This document shows, piece after piece, positions 4,175 to 5,877 of a stretch of DNA of 34,144 nucleotides. The position numbers and the translations under genes were made by a program. The first letter of the stretch is position 1, and every line of letters starts with the position of its first letter. The stretch comes from Phycisphaerales bacterium (GTDB taxonomy: Bacteria > Planctomycetota > Phycisphaerae > Phycisphaerales > UBA1924), in NCBI GenBank assembly GCA_020427745.1, contig JAGQOC010000005.1:1-34144 (forward strand), written 5' to 3'. Under the pieces are notes generated by a model. The model saw only the letters and a list, made by a program, of their open reading frames with translations. It searched no databases and was not told the DNA's origin.

Positions 4175-4801
4175 ATGAAAAAGACAATGACACTGGTCGC
4201 CTTCGCGGGCTGCGCATCACTTGCGTCCGCGACCATCATCGCCCAGAACACCTGGGACTCCGGCAGCCTCGAGGGCTGGACCTACGCATCGGGTACCGGT
4301 GGCGGTGAGTACGAAGTGCCGCTCTTCGGCGGCAACCCCGGCGGCTTCGTTCAGTATGTCGACGGCACCGACGGCTCGGCGCCCCCGCCGCAGATCTTCG
4401 CCCCCGCGGAGTACCTCGGTGACTACACCAGCTATGTCGGTGGCTACTTCGAGTACGACATCATCCTCTCGACCCCCCCGACCGTTCCCGGCGAGCCCCT
4501 CAACTACCCGAGGCTCCGCCTGGTTGGCGCGGACGGCTCCGAGGCACGCATCATCGCGGACTACCTCGTCGATGATTCTTGGCAGACCGTGCATGTCAAC
4601 ATCGTCGAGAGCGAGTGGGAGATGGTCACCGGCACATGGGCCGGGCTGATCAGCAATGTCAGCGCCGTCAAGCTCGGTGGCGATGTCATCACCGGCTCGG
4701 GCCCCGAGGGTGGGTTCGATAACTTTGTTCTTGTCCCCGCAGCACCGACCACCGGGCTGCTCGCGGTGGGCATGGCGCTCGCAACCCGCCGCCGTCGATA
4801 A
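4175..4801 (+). CDS. PEP-CTERM-type secreted protein with laminin-B-like domain
   Basis: A 208-residue exported protein. Residues 1-20 are a signal peptide (MKKTMTLVAFAGCASLASA). The body begins with NTWDSGSLEGWTY and ends with GGFDNFVLV; this and the strand pattern resemble the laminin B (domain IV) beta-sandwich, common in planctomycete PEP-CTERM proteins. The tail is a short proline motif (VPAAP), a hydrophobic segment and RRRR, which is the exosortase sorting layout, so the protein is probably cut and attached at the surface by an exosortase encoded elsewhere. A strong GGAGGA Shine-Dalgarno sequence (4161-4166) lies 8 bases before the ATG. An intrinsic terminator follows directly, so it is a single-gene transcript. 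Ligand unknown. Confidence 0.85.
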   Translation: MKKTMTLVAFAGCASLASATIIAQNTWDSGSLEGWTYASGTGGGEYEVPLFGGNPGGFVQYVDGTDGSAPPPQIFAPAEYLGDYTSYVGGYFEYDIILSTPPTVPGEPLNYPRLRLVGADGSEARIIADYLVDDSWQTVHVNIVESEWEMVTGTWAGLISNVSAVKLGGDVITGSGPEGGFDNFVLVPAAPTTGLLAVGMALATRRRR

Positions 4802-5190: not shown

Positions 5191-5877
5191 TTACGCGTTG
5201 CGGCGACGGCGGACGCTGCGGACACCGGCGATGCCCATCAGGAGCCCCGCACCGGCGAACGCTGCCGGGGGAAGCGGGACCACATAGAGCATGTCCTGCA
5301 CGCCCGGGGCGACCATCGCCTTGAGCCCGTTCAGACGCAGCGTGTCGTCGAAGGTCTGGGGGTTGGTCAGCTCGTAGTAGTAGTCCGCGAGATCGCCATC
5401 GGTGCGGTAGCTCTCGATCCGGACAGGGGAGCCGAAGGCTTCCCAGATCGCAGCCTGGATCGCACCCATCTTGGCGTAGTAATCAGTCTGGTTGGTGTCG
5501 GCCTGGAGCTGGTTGTCGATCCAGCCGAGCTCGACCGCGTTGGCGACGACCGCGTTGATCGCGTCGGAGATCGCCTGCCCGTAGGGCGTGCCGGGCATCG
5601 GAGCGTCGGCAACCTCAACGATCTCGTAGGTCGTGTCGGTCGAAGTCGCACGCTCCGAGAAATCGATGCAGAAGGTCGAGAATCGTTCGCCGGAGCGGGG
5701 GCCCGAGGTGAACTCGTGGACCATGTGCCCGGCCAAGTAGGTCGAGTGGCCGACCTTCAAGCGGGTCGCGTCCTGATAGCCCCCGGCGATCCCAACATAC
5801 TGGGCGTCCACAGTGTCTGCGACAGCAACGGTCGCGGTCAATGCACAAACAGCAGCGATAGCGAATCGGTTCTTCAT
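5191..5877 (-). CDS. PEP-CTERM-type surface protein with thioester (TQXA-like) domain
   Basis: A 228-residue exported protein: signal peptide 1-20 (cut near AVA|DTV), a central domain, then VVPLPPAAFAGAGLLMG, a hydrophobic stretch and RSVRRRRNA, a VPLPA/PEP-CTERM sorting tail. Cys70 in FSTFCIDFSE and Gln141 in GAIQAAIWEAFG fit the two motifs of Cys-Gln thioester domains ([YFL]C plus QxxxW; the TQXA form is TQXAIW). Such domains form an internal thioester able to bond covalently to host or partner amines; here this is inference from motif pattern only. The ATG at 5877 is chosen because GGAGGA lies 9 bases upstream; an open frame continues to 6042 but without a signal. Single-gene unit with its own leader. 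Confidence 0.8.
   Translation of the reverse strand: MKNRFAIAAVCALTATVAVADTVDAQYVGIAGGYQDATRLKVGHSTYLAGHMVHEFTSGPRSGERFSTFCIDFSERATSTDTTYEIVEVADAPMPGTPYGQAISDAINAVVANAVELGWIDNQLQADTNQTDYYAKMGAIQAAIWEAFGSPVRIESYRTDGDLADYYYELTNPQTFDDTLRLNGLKAMVAPGVQDMLYVVPLPPAAFAGAGLLMGIAGVRSVRRRRNA

Follow-up and report, generated by a model that had tools for sequence, protein, structure and literature searches.

A predicted stand-alone thioester domain protein with an exosortase-type tail in a planctomycete of the order Phycisphaerales

We analysed a 34,144-nucleotide stretch of a Phycisphaerales bacterium (contig JAGQOC010000005.1 of assembly GCA_020427745.1; hereafter the window, which belongs to contig 31 in a draft genome of 2.56 Mb) and focused on one minus-strand gene, which begins with an ATG at 5875–5877, ends with a stop codon at 5191–5193 and translates into 228 residues. 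Profile, fold and conservation together supported its product as a stand-alone thioester domain (TED) of a diderm bacterium and a variant of the known TED class. The protein is probably secreted; Cys70 and Gln194 would form its thioester, an exosortase would sort it, and it would cross-link surface or matrix components. A sequence-only reading of this gene had already proposed that a planctomycete has here a surface domain of the thioester-forming kind, and this was supported. The open reading frame that it described was real, with 228 residues, but needed correction to the minus strand. Translation also placed its two motifs, FSTFCIDF with Cys70 and GAIQAAIWEAF with Gln141, at the residues it had given, but its pairing of Cys70 with Gln141 is almost certainly wrong.

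Domain assignment and the bonding pair

A TED profile search, which the sequence-only reading had suggested as a check, matched Pfam PF08341 (TED, bacterial thioester domain) to residues 68–172 with 22.1 bits against a gathering cut-off of 22. Homologues scored higher against the same model, up to 34.8 bits, and 29 of 34 diverse aligned relatives gave a match (E values up to 1), indicating that the borderline score reflects divergence and not chance. The window protein is already within reach of an existing Pfam model, which makes its domain a variation on a known type. The NCBIfam families XDP1, PepA, QFxxD and others, inspected in ten relatives, were rejected as assignments; they scored far below their cut-offs, mostly on the C-terminal tail.

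An AlphaFold2 model built from 51 sequences reached a predicted local distance difference test score (pLDDT) of 93–98 over most of residues 21–190, with 77 in block 71–80 and 86 in block 91–100. The model contained six strands (22–30, 38–42, 45–49, 52–56, 65–70 and 82–87) and three helices (101–116, 133–148 and 161–170), followed by a hairpin (185–189/196–199) and a tail helix (206–227). This arrangement of a beta-barrel, a three-helix bundle and a P-Q hairpin is the one described for TED head domains (Miller 2018, PMC6194298). The best Foldseek match was a TED (5A0D), weak when taken alone (E 0.24). With VIA-align, all 11 listed bacterial TED entries of the PDB ranked first (Z 8.9–11.9, 141–170 residues aligned), and the next, unrelated row had a Z of 2.9. 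The class II beta-sandwich insertion was absent, only the strandless residues 171–184 lying between the helix at 161–170 and the strand at 185–189, and the class I alpha0 region, from strand D to helix 1, held no helix of at least four residues and a three-residue turn at 89–91. As modelled, the planctomycete protein is a minimal TED, without the class II beta-sandwich and without a clear class I alpha0 helix.

Conservation was assessed across 179 distinct homologues, which formed 38 clusters at 40% identity. Cys70, whose non-conservation the sequence-only reading had named as an argument against a thioester, was kept in 178 of them and Gln194 in all 179; Trp145 was kept in 178. Gln141 was likewise invariant (179/179), lies on the central helix and belongs to a motif that is near the Cys in known TEDs, all of which would favour it as the bonding residue. 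However, IQAAIW corresponds to the TQxxPhiW helix motif, whose Gln is non-bonding in characterised TEDs, where the bond survives its mutation (Walden 2015, PMC4450167; Miller 2018, PMC6194298), so Gln141 was misassigned as the partner. The nearness of Cys70 and Gln141, which the sequence-only reading had suggested as a check, would not discriminate between the pairings, because in known TEDs the Gln of the helix is hydrogen-bonded to the backbone of the Cys and lies near it in any case. The leading Thr of the motif is Ile in the planctomycete protein, and no residue of TQxxPhiW is fully conserved among known TEDs (PMC4450167).

The bonding motif holds Gln194, within V-Q-D-M-L, seven residues ahead of the Pro of VPLPP. 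The spacing from Cys70 to Gln194 was 124 residues (111–140 among relatives), and that of CpTIE is 129 by residue numbers (PMC4450167). At the ends of the structural alignments, model residue 202 stood opposite residue 275 of 5A0G (bonding Gln267) and residue 584 of 2XIC (bonding Gln575), which places the known bonding Gln opposite model residue 193–194, provided that the final residues are gap-free. In a single case, the diverged paralogue L029, Cys70 was replaced by Ser and Gln194 by Asn, with Gln141 and Trp145 intact; this joint loss speaks against the Cys70–Gln141 pair, as does the position of CpTIE Gln267. The L029 paralogue, on the plus strand with a start near base 583, has the look of a natural dead TED.

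Gln194 also proved separable from the sorting tail. An 868-residue protein of a sister genome carries a TED with other domains after it and no sorting tail, and retains the Cys and QDMLYV. Conversely, tail-only proteins beside TEDs kept VVPLPP and often the Asp, and mostly had Glu, Pro or Thr at the position of Gln194. Gln194 is therefore conserved as part of the TED, not as part of the tail. The invariant Asp195 was rejected as evidence for the bond, many tail-only proteins sharing an Asp there. The 868-residue protein (L066; G011:C19:206000-211000) has three DUF7467 domains after the TED, a multidomain secreted architecture. Taken together, the predicted thioester almost certainly joins Cys70 to Gln194 and not to Gln141, and the original pair is highly improbable.

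Proposed mechanism and competing explanations

In the mechanism that we propose, Sec would export the protein and the signal peptide would be removed. The domain would fold into its beta-barrel and three-helix bundle, and the Cys70–Gln194 thioester would close by itself with loss of ammonia, by analogy with homologous TEDs, which close their thioester spontaneously on expression in E. coli. One of two exosortases would then process the VPLPP, helix and Arg tail, delivering the protein to the cell surface or the exopolysaccharide layer. There, the buried thioester may react with an amine of a partner, most likely that of a lysine, and form an isopeptide bond between Gln and Lys; this would cross-link surface or matrix components or fix the cell to a target. 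The covalent bonding that the sequence-only reading had envisaged for a planctomycete protein is likewise expected by analogy. Among characterised systems, the SfbI thioester bonds a lysine of fibrinogen (PMC4450167), and the thioester of pLS20 is needed for efficient conjugation (PMC8092201).

The exosortase-type tail named in the sequence-only reading was present as VPLPPAAFAGAGLLMGIAGVRSVRRRRNA and is of the exosortase type, but it did not reach formal assignment, scoring 17.1 bits against the nearest tail model, IPTL-CTERM, with a cut-off of 20.5. PF07589 matched 11 of 34 relatives (E values up to 1). Two exosortases were detected in the same genome with 161.8 and 142.8 bits against a cut-off of 25.7.

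Several observations weigh against the proposed reading. The Pfam TED score of this single protein exceeds its cut-off by only 0.1 bit, and its tail falls under the formal PEP-CTERM and IPTL-CTERM cut-offs. A profile search of solved structures with a wide family alignment gave no TED, so the fold comparison carries the link to TED structures. In one homologue (L138), Asp stands in place of the Cys, with Gln194 retained. Finally, the mature protein (about 183 residues) is a single domain with no stalk domains and no LPXTG anchor, and the missing stalk, unlike in Gram-positive TED adhesins, implies a short reach.

The lack of a stalk also suits the best-surviving alternative, in which the TED-like fold is purely structural: the thioester, or an unbonded Cys and Gln, would stabilise a passive coat or matrix subunit that has no covalent partner. 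Many tandem paralogues of the same size and their ubiquity in the taxonomic family would fit such an abundant coat protein. However, the thioester of Cpa/Spy0125 adds little stability, and its loss cuts adhesion by ~75% (PMC4282584). Moreover, both bond residues are invariant at an overall identity of 20–40%, which suggests chemistry over packing. We regard the structural explanation as unlikely, though worth keeping in view. Another role for Cys70, as an intermolecular disulfide or a metal ligand in a protein with TED likeness of fold only, is very improbable: a single Cys could bridge two chains, but this leaves the invariant Gln194 and the joint Cys/Gln loss in L029 unexplained. In the mature window protein, Cys70 is the sole Cys (one further Cys, residue 11, lies inside the signal peptide), and the same holds for the mature region in 75 of 82 relatives, which excludes an intramolecular disulfide for those.

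The covalent cross-linking reading raises the matter of the partner lysine, and one candidate is encoded next to TEDs. In ten relatives in the genus, a small Cys-free protein with an exosortase tail adjoined a TED, mostly between two TED genes. These proteins (L091:6022-6471, L094:5241-5690, L081:6000-6401 and seven further loci) have a fast-evolving body. All ten carried a Lys 5–7 residues ahead of [VI]VPLP, which was the only Lys in 83–104 mature residues in seven of them, whereas none of 21 sampled other exosortase-tail proteins of the genus had a Lys in the final 15 residues before the tail (10/10 vs 0/21, Fisher P = 2e-8, relatedness ignored). The exosortase-tail proteins of the genus (e.g. 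L244-L263) are strongly Lys-poor, with 0–2 Lys within the 150 residues that precede the tail, and the Lys content of TEDs was 0.96%, compared to 4.3% for the genes of the window. Because low Lys is general to these surface proteins, the retained Lys is the point and not the depletion. Together, TEDs and a co-encoded small acceptor could form a self-contained system that cross-links the matrix covalently, the acceptor Lys opening the thioester to give an isopeptide bond between the two surface proteins.

Four results count against this acceptor idea. A search of the window genome for a small Lys acceptor gave only two matches, the tails of its two TEDs, so the idea cannot be a general rule. The nearest relative of the window genome also lacked a small Lys protein, and other genera had TED arrays without one. 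AlphaFold gave no usable fold for the small Lys protein (pLDDT 45, ten sequences). We hold the self-contained system to be doubtful.

Genomic context and distribution

The features of the gene and its neighbours are listed in Table 1. The order of the PSP1 protein, signal peptidase and TED genes was common to the window and its nearest relative (L085). The signal peptidase I is unusually long, with a long stretch separating the two Peptidase_S26 parts, and its orthologue gave a weak Laminin_G_3 match.

Table 1. Positions of the TED gene, its sequence features and neighbouring genes in the window
Feature	Position	Strand	Basis
TED protein gene, 228 amino acids, with stop codon	5191–5877	minus	Translation; Pfam TED match; 73%-identical orthologue in sister genome
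Predicted signal peptide, residues 1–20, cleavage AVA/DT	5818–5877	minus	Sequence inspection; low-pLDDT N-terminus; A20 shared by 95% of homologues
Cys70 codon (Cys predicted to form the thioester); F-C-I-D as the [YFL]C-Phi-zeta motif	5668–5670	minus	Conservation; motif from PMC4450167
Gln141 to Trp145, TQxxPhiW-type helix motif QAAIW, non-bonding Gln	5443–5457	minus	Conservation; model helix 133–148
Gln194 codon (Gln predicted to form the thioester); V-Q-D-M-L as the Phi-Q-zeta-Phi-Phi motif	5296–5298	minus	Conservation; P-Q hairpin of model; opposite CpTIE Gln267 by alignment ends
Exosortase-type tail, starting at Pro201 (PLPP, then a hydrophobic helix and RRRR)	5194–5277	minus	IPTL-CTERM score; helix 206–227; two exosortases in genome
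Signal peptidase I, 542 amino acids	6460–8088	minus	Peptidase_S26
Secreted protein with VPAAP...RRRR tail, no TED	4175–4801	plus	Translation; Pfam scan without TED; family profile matches tail only

The genome has one further TED gene, 38% identical, on contig 2. In order, genes for an exosortase, AAA/Wzc-like protein, sugar transferase and 1484-residue TPR protein precede it on the same strand (locus L118:2432-13271), and RmlD comes next. In 13 loci of relatives (L096-L108), a similar TED occupied the same place, adjoining an RmlD gene. The TPR protein preceded the TED in the 12 of these loci whose contig reaches that far, the sugar transferase was present where the stretch extends to it, and the exosortase was present in one longer stretch that reaches it (L120, the same locus as L096). 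This conserved paralogue locus ties the TED family to exosortase and exopolysaccharide. The TPR-TED-RmlD order was conserved across the genus.

Of 163 genomes in the taxonomic family of the host, 129 matched the TED family profile, representing 60 of 74 genera. The profile also occurred in further families belonging to this order and class and sporadically in the rest of the phylum (altogether 27 of the 392 genomes sampled). Among named relatives, the closest were metagenome-assembled genomes of Phycisphaerales, including OFTM350, UBA1910 and UBA3190. Many genomes carried tandem arrays, with up to five consecutive TEDs (L092). Outside the phylum, a PEP-CTERM protein of Phenylobacterium sp. (L109:5001-5291) showed FCVDI and QAAIW, and its C-terminus ends in a GVPEP tail with HQSF close by; its 15.9 bits lie under the Pfam TED cut-off. 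Judged by these motifs, it is a possible TED in Pseudomonadota.

Comparison with known thioester systems

TEDs have so far been described from Gram-positive bacteria, as host-bonding or mating adhesins, and Walden 2015 reported TED matches exclusively in Gram-positive bacteria (PMC4450167). The literature searched, which covered few subscription papers, linked no TED to PEP-CTERM or exosortase systems or to planctomycetes, papers that mention both exosortase and thioester being judged by title and abstract. The family described here is multi-copy, conserved in environmental planctomycetes and tied to exosortase and polysaccharide genes. If our reading is true, diderm bacteria would also use covalent thioester bonding, to construct or secure their cell surface or biofilm matrix, and exosortase cargo, a class nearly all of unknown function, would gain a concrete biochemical activity.

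Compared to class I TEDs, namely CpTIE (5A0G/5A0D), SfbI (5A0L) and Cpa/Spy0125 (2XI9, 2XIC, 4C0Z), the fold is alike over residues 22–202 (Z 8.9–10.8). Shared features are a Cys that ends a barrel strand, a QxxPhiW helix, a C-terminal hairpin with the PhiQzetaPhiPhi Gln and a similar Cys-Gln spacing. However, sequence identity is only 10–16%, and the planctomycete protein has neither LPXTG nor an isopeptide or ester stalk. Its entire mature form consists of a single TED plus an exosortase-type tail that begins 7 residues past the Gln, its host is a diderm planctomycete, and its model has no alpha0 helix of at least four residues. With the class II TEDs BaTIE (6FWV), SaTIE (6FX6) and EfmTIE86 (6FWY), the upper lobe is alike (Z 9.8–11.9), whereas the planctomycete model has only a short hairpin after helix 3.

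The likeness to PEP-CTERM and other exosortase-sorted proteins extends to a signal peptide, VPLPP, a hydrophobic helix, an Arg run, exosortases in the genome and a paralogue in an exosortase/polysaccharide locus; the planctomycete TED tail differs in scoring under the formal tail-model cut-offs. C3 and alpha-2-macroglobulin bond their targets through an internal Cys-Gln thioester, which is the same principle. Their thioester lies within a short contiguous GCGEQ in an unrelated fold, whereas the Cys and Gln of the planctomycete protein are 124 residues apart.
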